The position numbers and the translations under genes are program-made. Below, piece after piece: positions 9,785 through 15,464 of a DNA stretch of 21,471 nt. Source of the stretch: a virus; IMG/VR virus record IMGVR_UViG_3300009176_000085, positions 1 to 21,471 of that record; one strand, given 5' to 3'. How positions within the stretch are numbered: the stretch's first letter is position 1; each line of letters begins with the position of its first letter. Under the pieces are notes generated by a model that ran no database searches, had not been told where the DNA came from, and saw only the letters and a program-made list of their open reading frames with translations.

Positions 9785-11293
9785 CTATTCCTCCCAGTCG
9801 TCGCCGCTCGTCTGCGGCCAGTTGTCGTTGTCGCTCTGCGGCCAGTTGTCGTTGCTGCTTCCTGGCCAGGTCGGGAACCTCTGGTGAATCCTACGGACCA
9901 AGGAGACCAGGAATCCCACGGCTACCGAGATGTGCTGCGGGATGCGCTTGTTCAGCCCGACGACGAGCGTCGTGACCGCATCCACCGCCTGCGAGTAGAG
10001 GATGCCTGAGAACTGGTAGGCGTTGAGCGTGATGGTCGTCACGAACGAGGCCGCCATGCTCTTGCCGATACGCCGCGAGAGCGCCACGGCGAACGTGGTC
10101 GTGGCGTCCAGGGTGTGCCGGACCTGGCGTGAGAGCGCCGGGACGATGGTCGTGGTGACGGCCAGCAGGATGGTGCGAGCCGTCGCGCGAACCATGCCGA
10201 CCGTCAGGGTCACGCCCGCCGCGATGGTCTTGGCGGTGCTCCGCGACAGCGCGGCGGTGAGGGTCATCGTCGTGGCGATGGTCTTCGGGATACGGCGGCC
10301 GAGGGCGACGGTCATCGTGAAGGTCACCGCGATGCGCTGCGGGATGCGCTTGAACAGTTCGACCGTCAGGGTCATGGCCGTGGCGATGGGCTTGCCGACC
10401 CGGCGGCTGAGGGCGGCCGTCAGCGTGACCGTCACCGCGATGGCAATCACCTTGACCTTCGAGAACGTCAGGGCCGCCGTGAGGGTCAGCGTCGGAGCGA
10501 TGGTCTTGGAGGTCCGCCGGACCTGCGCCACGGTCAGGGTCAGCGACGTGGCGATGACCTTCCCGACCTGCTTCGTGAGTGCCACGGCGAACGAGAGCGC
10601 GGTCGCGATGGGCTTGCCGACCTGCTTCGTGAGCGCGGCCGTGAGCGTCATGGTGACCGCGATTGCGACGACCTTTATCTTCGCGGTCACGAGCGCCGCC
10701 GTCATGGTCACGGTCACCGCGATGGTCTTGGCGGTCTTGCGCGTCTGCGCGACCGTCATCGTGAACGACTGCGCGAGGACCTTCCCGACCATGCGCGAGA
10801 GCGCGGCGGTCAACGTCATGGTCGTGGCGAGCGGCTTGCCCACCATCCTGCTCAGGGCAGCGGTGAGCGTCATCGTCACCGGGATGGCGACCACCTTTAT
10901 CTTCGCGGTCACGAGCGCGGCGGTCATCGTCAGCGTCACGGCGATGGTCTTCGCGGTCTGCTTCGTCAGCGCGGCGGTCATGGTCAGACCGACGGCGATG
11001 GGCTTGCCGACCATGCGCAGGAGCGCGACCGTCAGGGTCATGGTCACCGCTGCCGTCTTCGAGGTTCGCCGGGAGAGCGCCACAGCGAACGAGAGGGCGG
11101 TCGCCAGTGGCTTGCCCACCTGGCGCACCAGCGCAGGCGTGAGCGTCATGGTGACGTCGACCTGCTGGAAGTTGAGGGTCCCGCTGACGCCAGCGGAGGG
11201 TATCCACTCCCGCACCTGCGTCGGCGGCTGGATGAATCGCCTGCGGAATACACCGCCGCCGCGCGAGGTCCGCGACCCCCGGCGTGCTGGCAT
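9785..11293 (-). CDS. Thr-rich tandem-repeat virion protein (about 23 repeats)
   Basis: 502 residues, ATG start 4 nt after the previous stop. It has three parts. Residues 1-46 are basic (MPARRGSRTSRGGGVFRRRF) and end in a Pro/Gln region. Residues 47-473 are about 23 imperfect repeats of 18 residues with consensus (VT)-x-T-(ML)-T-(AV)-A-L-(ST)-(RK)-x-(VT)-(GA)-K-x-I-A. The last 29 residues are acidic and carry a doubled DNWPQ motif. There is no signal peptide or enzymatic motif. Each unit should form a beta hairpin or strand pair, so a long rod, solenoid or surface layer is plausible. It lies among head and neck genes, so I infer a virion accessory, perhaps head-fibre or decoration, protein. 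The dense Thr content makes it a candidate acceptor for the phage's own glycosyltransferases. Confidence 0.75.
   Translation of the reverse strand: MPARRGSRTSRGGGVFRRRFIQPPTQVREWIPSAGVSGTLNFQQVDVTMTLTPALVRQVGKPLATALSFAVALSRRTSKTAAVTMTLTVALLRMVGKPIAVGLTMTAALTKQTAKTIAVTLTMTAALVTAKIKVVAIPVTMTLTAALSRMVGKPLATTMTLTAALSRMVGKVLAQSFTMTVAQTRKTAKTIAVTVTMTAALVTAKIKVVAIAVTMTLTAALTKQVGKPIATALSFAVALTKQVGKVIATSLTLTVAQVRRTSKTIAPTLTLTAALTFSKVKVIAIAVTVTLTAALSRRVGKPIATAMTLTVELFKRIPQRIAVTFTMTVALGRRIPKTIATTMTLTAALSRSTAKTIAAGVTLTVGMVRATARTILLAVTTTIVPALSRQVRHTLDATTTFAVALSRRIGKSMAASFVTTITLNAYQFSGILYSQAVDAVTTLVVGLNKRIPQHISVAVGFLVSLVRRIHQRFPTWPGSSNDNWPQSDNDNWPQTSGDDWEE
9811..9854 (-). repeat. Two 20-bp direct repeats encoding the DNWPQ tail
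   Basis: Identical 20-bp copies lie at 9811-9830 and 9835-9854, a 24-bp period. They encode the doubled NDNWPQ motif near the acidic C-terminus of the repeat protein. An exact DNA copy inside otherwise diverged repeats suggests a recent duplication or constraint. Confidence 0.85.
9875..11155 (-). repeat. Array of 18-residue (54-bp) coding repeats with a 222-bp super-period
   Basis: Eighteen regular units (residues 47-376) and about five degenerate ones (377-473). Units 5, 9 and 13 are 20 residues long and carry AKIKVVAI or SKVKVIAI, and start 74 residues (222 bp) apart: 10939, 10717 and 10495. Units at matching positions in the blocks are closest to each other, for example unit 8 TVAQTRKTAKTIA and unit 12 TVAQVRRTSKTIA. 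This shows that a four-unit block was itself duplicated. Near-identical tracts, such as those around 10671-10695 and 10893-10917, keep the 222-bp offset at DNA level. Confidence 0.85.
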
Positions 11294-13071: not shown

Positions 13072-13464
13072 TCAGCTTGGGTCTAGCGTGAAGGTGAACT
13101 GGATGCTGTCGCCGGACACGAGCGGGATACCGGTGAAGTCGCCCTTCACGAACAGAGCAGCCGACGAGGCGTTGGCGCCTGCCCAGATGCCCGCGTTCGT
13201 GATGGTCTGGCTGGATGTCGACGGCAGCGTCGAGACGCACTGCCACTTCGCCGACGAACCGGTTCCCGTCTTCGTCACGGACGCGTTCGTCGAGACCATC
13301 GCCGTCGAGCTTGGGTCGTTCGACTGCGTGAACAGCGCCGTGTCGGTCTTGTTGCTCGTGCCTGCTCCGGTTCCCCAGCCGACGTACGCGCCGGTCGAAG
13401 ACGAGTAGGTCCCGGACGTACCGATGAGCCGGTCGACGACCCACTCCTCGCCCAGATTGGTCAA
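13072..13464 (-). CDS. Small virion protein interrupted at its 5' end by an HNH gene
   Basis: 130 residues from the TTG at 13464. The body reads GEEWVVDRLIGTSG, YVGWGTGAGTSNKTDTALFT, ITNAGIWAG and FVKGDFTGIPLVSGDSIQFT. From memory, this WGTGAGT...DTxLFT...ITNAG...(I/V)KGDF.GI.L..GDSIQFT framework belongs to small phage head- or tail-fibre-like proteins whose N-terminus is often MANVLTN.GEE. Here the codons upstream in frame read ATC GCT AAT GTC TTG ACC AAT (IANVLTN), matching a stub MANVLTN at 13955-13935 on the far side of the endonuclease gene. The present start is therefore uncertain: TTG at 13464, which overlaps a TGA as TTGA, or a non-standard ATC at 13476, which has AAGGGGG at good spacing. 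Confidence 0.65.
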   Translation of the reverse strand: MTNLGEEWVVDRLIGTSGTYSSSTGAYVGWGTGAGTSNKTDTALFTQSNDPSSTAMVSTNASVTKTGTGSSAKWQCVSTLPSTSSQTITNAGIWAGANASSAALFVKGDFTGIPLVSGDSIQFTFTLDPS

Positions 13465-13473
13465 GACATTAGC
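13456..13473 (-). repeat. Recoded duplication flanking the HNH gene, downstream copy
   Basis: GCTAATGTCTTGACCAAT encodes ANVLTN and is fused in frame to the body of the small virion protein. It differs from the upstream copy (13935-13952) at 4 of 18 positions, all synonymous third or first wobble positions. Confidence 0.8.
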
Positions 13474-13479
13474 GATAAG

Positions 13480-13923
13480 TCATTCCCCCTTCAGGTAGAG
13501 AACGGCACCGTTCAACCGTTCGATGTCGTCACGGAACAACCCTAGGGCGAGGTTGCACGGGTTGCACAGCAGCCCGCGCACGGTTCCTTCTTCGTGGTCG
13601 TGGTCGATGTCAGTAGCGGGTTCGGAATAGCAGACTCCGCAGAGACCATCCTGCGCGATGAGCATCTCGTGGAACTCCTGCTCGCTCAGCCCGTACTTGC
13701 CACGCAGGTTGTGGCGCTTGTTCCACTCGCGCACCTTGTCGGGATTCTCCGCCCGATAGGTCCGCTGATACTCGCGCAGTCTTGCCTTCTCCTCCGGCGT
13801 TCTGGTCTTCTGCTTGCGGGCCATGTATTCCCGATTGCGCGCGCGCTTGCGCTCAGTCGCCTCCGGGCTGAGGAGCGGCTGGCCCTTTCCCTGCTTCGCC
13901 TGGAGGACCGGAGCACGTTTCAT
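13480..13923 (-). CDS. Endonuclease VII-type HNH nuclease, probable mobile gene
   Basis: 147 residues. The ATG at 13923 is chosen for its GGAGG (13929-13933) at 5 nt. Residues 20-75 are highly charged and helical (ARNREYMARKQ, REYQRTYRAENPDKVREWNK). Residues 77-147 match the recombination endonuclease VII fold: YGLSEQEFHEMLIAQDGLCG, zinc ligands C95/C98 and C120/C123, and the DIDHDH motif (105-110) with the catalytic His, then GTVRGLLCNPCNLALG. T4 gp49 of this family cuts branched DNA, but many phage relatives act as free-standing homing-type nucleases. Placement inside a virion operon and the duplicated flanking codons favour a mobile element. The AT content of the flanking junction (ATGACTTATCGCTAATG) is higher than its surroundings. 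Confidence 0.85.
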   Translation of the reverse strand: MKRAPVLQAKQGKGQPLLSPEATERKRARNREYMARKQKTRTPEEKARLREYQRTYRAENPDKVREWNKRHNLRGKYGLSEQEFHEMLIAQDGLCGVCYSEPATDIDHDHEEGTVRGLLCNPCNLALGLFRDDIERLNGAVLYLKGE

Positions 13924-13955
13924 ACGCGCCTCCGGTTGGTCAGGACGTTTGCCAT
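13920..13955 (-). pseudogene. Detached 5' stub (MANVLTN) of the small virion protein gene
   Basis: On the coding strand ATG GCA AAC GTC CTG ACC AAC is preceded by a strong AAGGAGG (13960-13966) and continues CGG AGG CGC GTA TGA, an 11-codon frame. The stop overlaps the endonuclease ATG as ATGA. The first seven codons give MANVLTN, identical in protein to the codons that precede GEEWVVDRL in the downstream gene. I read this as the original start of that gene, cut off by the endonuclease insertion. It may still be translated as an 11-residue leader that couples the endonuclease to the upstream gene. Confidence 0.65.
13935..13952 (-). repeat. Recoded duplication flanking the HNH gene, upstream copy
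   Basis: GCAAACGTCCTGACCAAC, encoding ANVLTN directly after the original ATG. 14 of 18 bases match the copy at 13456-13473. The TGA inside it also terminates the upstream glycosyltransferase-like gene in another frame. Confidence 0.8.
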
Positions 13956-14545
13956 GTCTCCTCCTTGTGGTCCCCCATCCAAGCGACAGGGTCGCCGCCG
14001 GACTCCTGCACATGCCAGCCGACTCGGCGCTCAATCTCACGCATCGAGATGTCGTTCGGCCACTGCGACTCGTTCAGGTGCGCCGCCGCCGGGTAGTGCG
14101 CGTGCGGTGTGATGAAGGGCCACCCCATCTCCTCGGAGAGATGGGCATCGAGGTACATCCATTCGGACGAGATGCGGTCCCACAGTCCAGGGTTGCGCTG
14201 AATCATCGTGGCACCGAATCGCATCGCGCCCAGCGAGGTCGTATACATGCGTCCGTGGCAGAGCGTCGGCAGGACGCACCAGTCCATGTCACAGCTGAAC
14301 AGGAACGCCACGGACCCAGGCCAGACCATCACGTCGTGCTCGACGACCATGAACTCGCGGCCGTCGGACCAGGCGTCACGCAGCATCTTCCAGTAGGCGT
14401 CGCCGGTGTCGACCTTCACGGCCTCCGGCTGGACGTACTGGATGCGCAAGCAGTCGATGACCGCCTGCACCTTCTCGGTCGCCTTCGTGTACGGCACGAG
14501 CACGCGCCGGTCCACGGGCTTCTCGACCTTCGTCCACAGCTTCAT
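13940..14545 (-). CDS. Small glycosyltransferase-like protein
   Basis: 201 residues, ATG start in an ATGA overlap with the methyltransferase. RRVLVPYTKATEKVQAVIDC opens with a nucleotide-sugar-like strand and helix. FMVVEHDVMVWPGS carries EHD (69-71) at the place where GT-A enzymes have the metal-binding DXD. ...DMDWCVLPTLCHGRMYTTSLGAMRFGATM and PGLWDRISSEWMYLDAHLSE resemble the acceptor-binding half, and WPFITPHAHYPAAAHLNESQ follows. It is short for a complete glycosyltransferase (usually 230-300). It lies next to a sugar O-methyltransferase, which fits a shared glycan pathway. The family assignment is an inference from motif order; the donor and acceptor are unknown. Confidence 0.55.
   Translation of the reverse strand: MKLWTKVEKPVDRRVLVPYTKATEKVQAVIDCLRIQYVQPEAVKVDTGDAYWKMLRDAWSDGREFMVVEHDVMVWPGSVAFLFSCDMDWCVLPTLCHGRMYTTSLGAMRFGATMIQRNPGLWDRISSEWMYLDAHLSEEMGWPFITPHAHYPAAAHLNESQWPNDISMREIERRVGWHVQESGGDPVAWMGDHKEETWQTS
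13960..13965 (-). promoter_or_regulatory. Shine-Dalgarno of the detached MANVLTN start
   Basis: AGGAGG on the coding strand, within AAGGAGGAGACATGG, 4 nt before the ATG at 13955. It lies in the last codons of the upstream gene. Its strength argues that this ATG was the real start of a virion gene. Confidence 0.6.
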
Positions 14546-15276
14546 CCGACCGTGACCTCCATCGGAACCCCGTCCGGCCGCGACTCGCCGACGAGCGCGT
14601 GCGGGTGCTCCGGCATCATCTCGGAGGGCTTCGTGTTGTCGCCCTTGCGGATGAACGCGAGGTTCCGCGCAAGCTCGATGCCGACGAGCGTGCGGTCGTA
14701 GTCGGTGACGTGGTAGTTCGCGATGTTCAGGTCGGCGTAGTGCAGGTGGTTGATGAGACCGAATATCCAGCCGATGGTCGTCTCGCCGGTGCGCTCCGAG
14801 GAGCCGCCGTACTCCGACCAGTAGCTCGTCTGGAGGTCTTCGACGACGTACCAGCCGCCGTCCTTCAGGAACTCCCAGAGGTACGCCCAGGCCATCATCA
14901 CGTCGTCGCACCGATGCGAGCCGTCGTCGATGATGATGTCGAACGGCCCGTAGGTCTCGCCGAGATGGCGCACGACGCGACGGTCGGTGATGTCGCCCTT
15001 CTCGATGTGGACCCGCTCCCCCAGGTTCATCGCCTTGGCGTGGATGTCCAGCCCGACGATGGTCCCGTTCGGGAAGTAGTCGCGCCACATCTTCAGCGAC
15101 TCGCCGCCGGTCATCGGGTCCTGGTATCCGCCCACCCCAATCTCCAGCACGGAGACCGGGGAATCCCTGAGCGCGTCGAAGCGCCGGTGGTAGTGCGGCG
15201 TGTACCAGTGGTCCCGCGCCTTGTCGGTCCCGTGCTGCAAGGCCAGCTGGCTGAGCAGGTCGTTCGGGTCGGTCAT
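14542..15276 (-). CDS. Class I SAM-dependent sugar O-methyltransferase (MycE-like)
   Basis: 244 residues. The start is the ATG at 15276 in an ATGA overlap with the preceding stop; longer forms in this frame run into another gene. The N-terminus LLSQLALQHGTDKARDHWYT is followed by VLEIGVGG (motif I, SAM binding, 43-50), MTGGESLKMWRDYFPNGTIV, GLDIHAK (motif II, 75-81), IIIDDGSH (114-121) and YVVEDLQTSYW (143-153). These features match macrocin/mycinose-type sugar O-methyltransferases such as MycE, in which the DDGSH and EDLQ acids bind the metal. The likely reaction is methyl transfer from SAM to a hydroxyl of a deoxysugar. With Gmd and the fucose synthase nearby, an O-methylated 6-deoxyhexose on phage glycans is a reasonable inference. 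Confidence 0.85.
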   Translation of the reverse strand: MTDPNDLLSQLALQHGTDKARDHWYTPHYHRRFDALRDSPVSVLEIGVGGYQDPMTGGESLKMWRDYFPNGTIVGLDIHAKAMNLGERVHIEKGDITDRRVVRHLGETYGPFDIIIDDGSHRCDDVMMAWAYLWEFLKDGGWYVVEDLQTSYWSEYGGSSERTGETTIGWIFGLINHLHYADLNIANYHVTDYDRTLVGIELARNLAFIRKGDNTKPSEMMPEHPHALVGESRPDGVPMEVTVG

Positions 15277-15464
15277 GTGCCAGCCCCCACGCCCCACCGC
15301 TTGGCGTAGGCGTCGGACACGGTCCCCAGTTCCTCGCGCGTCCCGTCCTTGCGGATGACCACGGCCGAGATACCGCCGACCTTCTTGTAGAACGGCGGCG
15401 GATAGCGCAGGCGGTTCTTCACCCGCTTCCAGCTGTTGCGGAACCGATAGGCCTTGACGTTCAC
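15273..15464 (-). CDS. Small phage protein of unknown function
   Basis: 63 residues. The GTG start overlaps the protease stop as GTGA, and the stop overlaps the methyltransferase ATG as ATGA, so it is coupled on both sides. The N-terminal half is very basic (AYRFRNSWKRVKNRLRYPPP). It then reads VGGISAVVIRKDGTREELGT, and ends VSDAYAKRWGVGAGT. I remember VV.R.DGT.E.LG.VS as the N-terminal part of longer (about 190-residue) phage virion proteins whose second half resembles the small protein at 13072-13464. It could be a free-standing version of that module or a truncated remnant. No other motif is visible. Confidence 0.6.
   Translation of the reverse strand: MNVKAYRFRNSWKRVKNRLRYPPPFYKKVGGISAVVIRKDGTREELGTVSDAYAKRWGVGAGT

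Follow-up and report, generated by a model that had tools for sequence, protein, structure and literature searches.

In a stretch of viral DNA of 21,471 nucleotides (IMG/VR record IMGVR_UViG_3300009176_000085, hereafter the window), a gene for an HNH endonuclease of the Endonuclease VII family lies between two versions of the first codons of a small tail-type virion gene. One version forms a short stub ahead of the nuclease gene, and the other, which encodes the same ANVLTN peptide with partly different codons, runs into the body of the virion gene. The best explanation, which we regard as probable, is that the nuclease gene was inserted after codon 7 and that the recoded terminus was copied from a donor in the course of break repair.

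The interrupted tail gene and its two 5' ends

The genes concerned lie on the minus strand, and the coordinates in the preliminary description of this DNA are those of the plus strand (Table 1). On re-reading the sequence, all the elements given there were present, namely the AAGGAGG motif, the 11-codon stub, the nuclease gene and the second ANVLTN copy, and the two copies do differ at four of 18 bases, every difference being synonymous. The stub opens with ATGGCAAACGTCCTGACCAAC (MANVLTN) behind AAGGAGG (13966-13960, minus strand) and reads MANVLTNRRRV* (ATG GCA AAC GTC CTG ACC AAC CGG AGG CGC GTA TGA, 13955-13920); its TGA overlaps the ATG of the nuclease gene (ATGA), which has CGGAGG as its own Shine-Dalgarno sequence. 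Downstream of the nuclease, ATCGCTAATGTCTTGACCAAT runs in frame into the tail-type gene, which ends at 13072. The trinucleotide CTT separates the nuclease TGA from ATC GCT AAT GTC TTG ACC AAT CTG GGC GAG (from 13476), in which GCT AAT GTC TTG ACC AAT occupies 13473-13456. The copies enclose an insert of 458 nt, 444 of them ORF. The stop codon of the upstream 201-aa gene falls inside the 5' copy, so that this copy also serves the upstream gene.

Table 1. Features at the interrupted tail gene of the window
Feature	Position	Strand	Basis or remark
Short gene with VVIRKDGTREELG motif	15273..15464	-	Directly precedes the virion gene in relatives
Upstream 201-aa gene, no family assigned	13940..14545	-	Stop TGA 13942-13940 inside the native 5' copy
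Shine-Dalgarno AAGGAGGAGAC	13956..13966	-	Sequence; would be that of the native virion-gene start, today ahead of the stub
5' copy, probably native, ATG GCA AAC GTC CTG ACC AAC (MANVLTN)	13935..13955	-	Codon usage, family start
Endonuclease VII-family HNH gene, 147 aa	13480..13923	-	Pfam, PHROG, alignment A2
Regenerated, probably recoded 5' copy, ATC GCT AAT GTC TTG ACC AAT ((I)ANVLTN)	13456..13476	-	Atypical codons
Small tail-type virion gene, 134 aa from ATC	13072..13476	-	tblastn; annotated-style start would be TTG 13464

The nuclease protein matches PF02945 in Pfam (E = 2.8e-20, 72.5 bits against a curated cut-off of 23.6) and PHROG 2914 (E = 3.2e-31). Its zinc cysteines and D-H-x-H...N motif are intact, and C95, C98, D107, H108, H110, C120, C123 and N124 are invariant in alignment A2. 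Distant relatives in phages number in the thousands, and none of them reaches 60% identity. Some members of the Endonuclease VII family are Holliday-junction resolvases, and the gene described here is putatively of the free-standing homing type.

Phage homologues of the interrupted gene found by tblastn are annotated as 'tail collar fiber protein', and Foldseek gave weak matches (E ~0.02) to baseplate/arm proteins of phages phi812 and A511, obtained with an AlphaFold model of modest confidence (pLDDT 66). We compared the gene start with 80 IMG/VR homologues. In nearly all of them the ATG aligned with the ATC of the window is the start codon, and the N-terminus is M-A-[T/N]-[L/V]-[L/V]-[T/V]-N-x-G or a close variant, which supports the ancestral start MANVLTNLGEEWVVDRL proposed earlier; eight of nine homologues from bacterial/archaeal assemblies have the same start, the ninth being a partial match only. 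The nearest homologue, in L093 (58% identity), reads MATTVLTNVGEQWVCDRA and is uninterrupted, as is the tail gene in other relatives, where the preliminary description had suggested looking for an intact gene; in L093 it stands directly after the short VVIRxDG-type gene that precedes the family in relatives. Since nuclease-free homologues start with M-A-[N/T]-x-x-x-N, both copies in the window correspond to the ancestral 5' end, and sequence comparison thus identifies both as the real N-terminus of the family. Among the homologues examined, we found neither nuclease-free genes with both ANVLTN copies nor genes normally starting at GEEWVVDRL. The suggested insertion after codon 7 is consistent with the stub and the recoding both ending at codon 7/8, and the joined site before insertion would have consisted of the stub codons followed directly by CTGGGCGAGGAGTGG. 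The homologues show this site uninterrupted; the exact empty site is known for another locus, L235 (see below), and not for a close relative of the phage of the window.

The two copies could be told apart by codon usage. AAT, TTG and GCT make up only 5, 7 and 10% of the Asn, Leu and Ala codons of this GC-rich genome, respectively, and the 3' copy contains AAT twice, TTG and GCT. It ranks as the third most atypical among 6442 six-codon windows (P = 0.0007 against synonymous sampling), and in the same test the 5' copy has ordinary, native-type usage. As gene starts in the window are AT-richer than gene bodies, the test was repeated against codons 2-7 of 20 other genes, and the 3' copy again scored lowest (-7.8; next minimum -5.65). 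Codons 8-13 of the virion gene score +1.8, so that native usage resumes right after codon 7 and the recoding appears to end exactly where the stub ends. The excess of synonymous differences between the copies is significant (P = 0.0023). These results support the downstream copy as the altered one in the window. Searches for close relatives and for the DNA pattern of the joined site found no uninterrupted allele of this phage, and the call of the native copy here therefore rests on codon usage: no close relatives of the nuclease or of the genes on both sides were found in viral_contigs, and the DNA-pattern search for the joined site NLGEEWVVD gave no match.

At the start position of the family, the regenerated copy has ATC and not ATG (13476-13474), so the rebuilt gene is without a standard start there and the next candidate is TTG 13464. 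Translation could start at the ATC, with AAGGGGG 8 nt upstream, or at the TTG, which lacks a clear Shine-Dalgarno sequence, or ribosomes that terminate at the nuclease stop could re-initiate. In E. coli, ATC works very poorly as a start codon. The rebuilt gene may be poorly expressed, may truly start at ATC or TTG, or may contain one wrongly assembled base. The nuclease and virion genes share one frame with a single TGA (then C) between them, and readthrough would therefore fuse both proteins. No RNA structure was found at either start. A chain of tiny overlapping ORFs follows the nuclease (13456-13483, minus strand), in which ATGA (MTYR*) and TAATG (MS*) precede the TTG start.

Regenerated gene ends at other nuclease sites

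Two profile scans gave 160 loci with Endonuclease VII-type genes, some of them on shared contigs, and the addition of a few sites from annotated phages led to 155 distinct sites. About 150 were surveyed by comparison of the upstream and downstream flanks of each nuclease gene. Eight further loci have a regenerated gene end, four at 5' ends and four at 3' ends, mostly by synonymous recoding, and about 94% of the surveyed sites show no such duplication.

Among the 5' cases, the nuclease is fused to the stub MDRAD in L131, with an FkbM-type methyltransferase starting MDRADASLI downstream, and to the stub MNELALFAGAG in L235, where the downstream C5-methyltransferase starts NELALFAGAGGG. In L120 the stub MRGRLIQRWFDSWRL* is followed downstream by VRGRLIQRF, and in L130 a 36-aa stub, MSKNYFISGEFNVTCDVC..., is followed by MKNHFDSGSWNVTCDRC...; no phage relatives of the L120 gene were found. 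The native ribosome-binding site has been taken over by the nuclease in three 5' cases, through ATGA coupling in the window and through in-frame fusion in L131 and L235. The 3' cases are the mirror image, the gene that precedes the nuclease having its 3' end in duplicate, and here the downstream copy was assigned as the native one from its position. L181 concerns a 3'-5' exonuclease-type gene with an orphan C-terminus after the nuclease, and in L125, L159 and L217 the invaded gene's native last codons and stop close the nuclease ORF itself (stubs TLPEELK*, QKCCEVIK* and QQVPPELQ*, respectively). Synonymous changes make up all six changed codons (of ten codons) in L235, 6/8 in L120, and 3/3 in both L125 and L217, the synonymous excess having P < 0.001 for L235 and L120. 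L130 and L181 have long copies with many amino-acid differences.

A BLOSUM score in any frame was also passed by 11 of 248 control ORFs, many of them of low complexity, and was therefore dropped as sole evidence. With a peptide-identity score, the counts were 6/150 nuclease sites (after removal of three short-ORF artefacts) against 1/219 control ORFs, this one Ala-rich, and 0/1487 cross pairs; L130, L131 and L181 were added by inspection. Several candidates were rejected: the 28/28 match of L127 is an ORF artefact, the upstream copy in L161 lies away from the boundary, the matches in L132, L144 and L113 are compositional and in wrong frames, that in L267 is in the wrong frame, and L148@2838, L238@150 and L162@2121 involve short second ORFs with overlapping flanks.

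The empty site is known for L235, whose stub is AATGAGTTGGCTCTTTTCGCAGGCGCTGGT and whose regenerated copy is AATGAACTCGCTCTCTTTGCAGGAGCAGGT. In six phages with an uninterrupted C5-methyltransferase gene, the start of this gene agrees with the stub at 30 (an Acinetobacter phage), 29 (a Salmonella phage), 29, 29, 26 and 25 of 30 bases, but with the regenerated copy at only 22-23/30. All six being nearer to the stub than to the copy, the regenerated copy of L235 is the altered one, and since the stub is native, a duplication followed by decay of the stub is excluded at this locus. Past the copy, identity to the nearest relative rises at once, from 22/30 bases to 26/30 and 29/30 in the gene body (Fisher P = 0.04; 371/420 overall), and the alteration in L235 stops at the insertion point. 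This result supports the reading of the window as a native stub and an altered copy. The earlier proposal that the recoded copy was brought with the element is in turn backed by the codon usage in the window, the empty sites of L235 and the recurrence at other loci. A donor allele of the recoded end of L235 was not present in the phage collection, and in the window the replacement terminus has seven codons, too few for a phylogeny of its origin. As a separate observation, the first 30 coding bases of this phage cytosine methyltransferase are almost invariant (29-30/30), synonymous sites included (L235, L274, L275, L276, L277), and the next 120 bases of these genes match L235 at only ~58-74%.

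Proposed mechanism, alternatives and known counterparts

In the mechanism that we favour, an Endonuclease VII-family HNH gene would have been inserted after codon 7 of the tail gene, leaving the seven native codons behind as the stub, and the inserted DNA would end in a recoded copy of the same codons, by which the gene is rebuilt on the far side. After cleavage by the enzyme near codon 7/8, the end on the side of the gene would invade a diverged donor allele with the nuclease just upstream and copy the donor 5' codons plus the nuclease, and the other end would be sealed illegitimately, without homology, because the upstream genes differ. The product would be native stub, nuclease, donor terminus and native body, and an uninterrupted donor-type allele would read GCTAATGTCTTGACCAAT CTGGGC. 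Recoding would leave the protein product unchanged and should remove the cut site, a change of the recognition site being plausible, and it should also hinder excision by recombination between stub and copy. The stub would stay useful, since it contains the end of the upstream gene and provides, through ATGA coupling, a ribosome-binding site for the nuclease, and ribosomes leaving the nuclease gene may re-initiate at ATC or TTG to translate the rebuilt gene. One break-repair route of this kind, mirrored for 3' ends, would explain both arrangements as well as the range from near-identical to strongly diverged copies. The arrangement itself, the homology of the two copies, the altered state of the downstream one and the recurrence at other loci are established by the sequence comparisons; cleavage, homing, the repair route and the choice of start codon are inferred.

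Insertion may instead have duplicated the target exactly, the downstream copy then acquiring synonymous changes that were selected because they prevent recutting. No foreign donor would be needed for this, and the end state, with a terminus expected to resist cutting and not to recombine with the stub, would be the same. The confinement of the recoding to the duplicated stretch and the lack of a donor allele for L235 in the phage collection also fit such a course. However, several independent synonymous changes would be needed (4 in 6, 6 in 10 and 6 in 9 codons) where one or two should suffice, and the long copies of L130 and L181, with their many amino-acid differences, look like diverged alleles, so we judge this course to be unlikely. 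We give still less credence to a mosaic boundary, in which a native stub is followed by a nuclease and a wholly foreign virion gene, and the apparent recoding is divergence between whole-gene alleles. Nuclease genes do often mark exchange boundaries between phages (PMC10448857), and the entire downstream gene of L130 could be foreign, but codon usage in the window is native again at codon 8 and the body of L235 is closer to its uninterrupted relative than the copy is (26/30 and 29/30 against 22/30, Fisher P = 0.04).

Two related copies would also arise if the gene start had simply been duplicated and the disused 5' copy had drifted. This is very improbable, since a stub no longer in use should accumulate non-synonymous changes and become the divergent one of the two, whereas the stub is native in L235 and the atypical copy in the window is the downstream one. 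Phage introns often harbour HNH genes, but a self-splicing intron is most improbable here, as 444 of the 458 nt of the insert are ORF, duplicated exon codons would serve no purpose in an intron, and cmscan at a permissive threshold found no Rfam intron match to an RNA core. Chance or convergent likeness of two sequences matching over only 18-21 bases can be set aside, since both copies match the conserved N-terminus of one gene family, the arrangement recurs in other phages, and matches at five or fewer mismatches are expected at ~0.1 per window and ~1e-4 within 60 nt of the nuclease stop, no third 21-mer match at this threshold being found in the whole window on both strands.

Donor-copied termini of the kind that we favour for the window have a close parallel in the mobile ORFs (mORFs) of fungal mitochondria, which carry a foreign 3' end of atp6, atp9, cox2 or nad3 and displace the native end, for example in atp6 of Allomyces macrogynus and in atp6, atp9, cox2 and nad3 of Glomus sp. 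(PMC3630166); alternative 3' ends are also seen in Phlebia (PMC4019555). In both systems a free-standing endonuclease ORF lies in a gene, a replacement terminus, foreign in the mORFs and putatively so in the phages, is joined to a native body and the native terminus is left as a remnant, and the native ends of mORFs change mostly at synonymous sites. In the phages examined here, a replacement terminus on a native body is indicated by the break in codon usage at codon 7/8 and by the empty-site comparison of L235, and a remnant native terminus by the stub at 13955-13935 with its native codon usage. In contrast to the phage case, with its Endonuclease VII-type HNH enzyme, a 5' end of seven codons and a stub reused as the translation start of the nuclease, mORFs are mitochondrial, encode LAGLIDADG or GIY-YIG enzymes and involve 3' ends only, of tens of codons. 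The preliminary description held that the arrangement goes beyond a plain split gene; this stands as far as phages are concerned, but the mORFs are a close precedent that it did not name (PMC3630166).

Free-standing phage HNH genes inside important genes are also represented by mobE in nrdA of Aeh1 and mobA in the topoisomerase gene of T4, which share with the window the stop/start overlap and translational coupling, but the protein is split there and no terminus is regenerated, and the review of these cases does not mention a duplication (PMC2988022). Endonuclease VII-type genes of T7-like phages and actinophages (for example gene 13.5 of phiYeO3-12) belong to the same protein family and are of similar size. 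Their neighbours are structural or replication genes, with which they share overlapping stop and start codons, and no convincing regenerated terminus was seen at 18 cultured-phage loci with such nucleases. Reviews and surveys of phages describe intergenic sites or split genes (PMC2988022; PMC10448857; PMC12724721). We found no phage case with a regenerated terminus in the open-access literature, which is weak evidence, as most subscription journals were outside this scope.

What appears to be new here is the phage setting, the HNH/Endonuclease VII enzyme and the involvement of 5' as well as 3' ends, the underlying logic being already known from fungal mitochondria. In synthetic recoded-rescue homing drives, a nuclease gene is placed in an essential gene, and the end that it disrupts is supplied again in a recoded form that resists cutting and restores the product. 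The window has the same design, but is natural, and its drive activity is putative. As a proposal for which the case is evenly balanced, Endonuclease VII-type homing genes carrying a recoded 5' or 3' end may form a recurrent class in phages, acting as natural 'recoded-rescue' drives that spare the host gene while the cut site is lost; the stub would be put to use in their own translation or as their own terminus. Most descriptions of homing genes that are not part of introns or inteins place them between genes or have them split a gene. If our reading is correct, entry into coding sequence without loss of the product would widen the range of targets to essential genes, would provide a natural counterpart of recoded-rescue gene drives, and would account for the curious short ORFs ('stubs') and duplicated gene ends next to phage nucleases. 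A further consequence is that the end of the recoding should mark the cut site and the stub should give the native target sequence.

Neighbouring genes

The gene upstream of the stub had been described as glycosyltransferase-like, which found no support from Pfam, PHROGs or tblastn: the 201-aa gene has no family match in Pfam or PHROGs, and no phage relatives were found by tblastn. In the window, the short gene at 15464-15273 and the virion gene are separated by a methyltransferase gene, the 201-aa gene and the nuclease gene; the methyltransferase and the orphan 201-aa gene (13940-15291) thus stand between the short VVIRxDG gene and the tail gene, which are adjacent in relatives. On the other side, positions 9785-11293 encode a 502-aa protein of degenerate repeats of the type 'MTLTAALSRMVGKP-A', and a similar repeat protein is found downstream of the homologous tail gene in L093. 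Between 16803 and 21110, translations read by eye include genes resembling GDP-mannose dehydratase, fucose synthase and glycosyltransferases beside a head protease.
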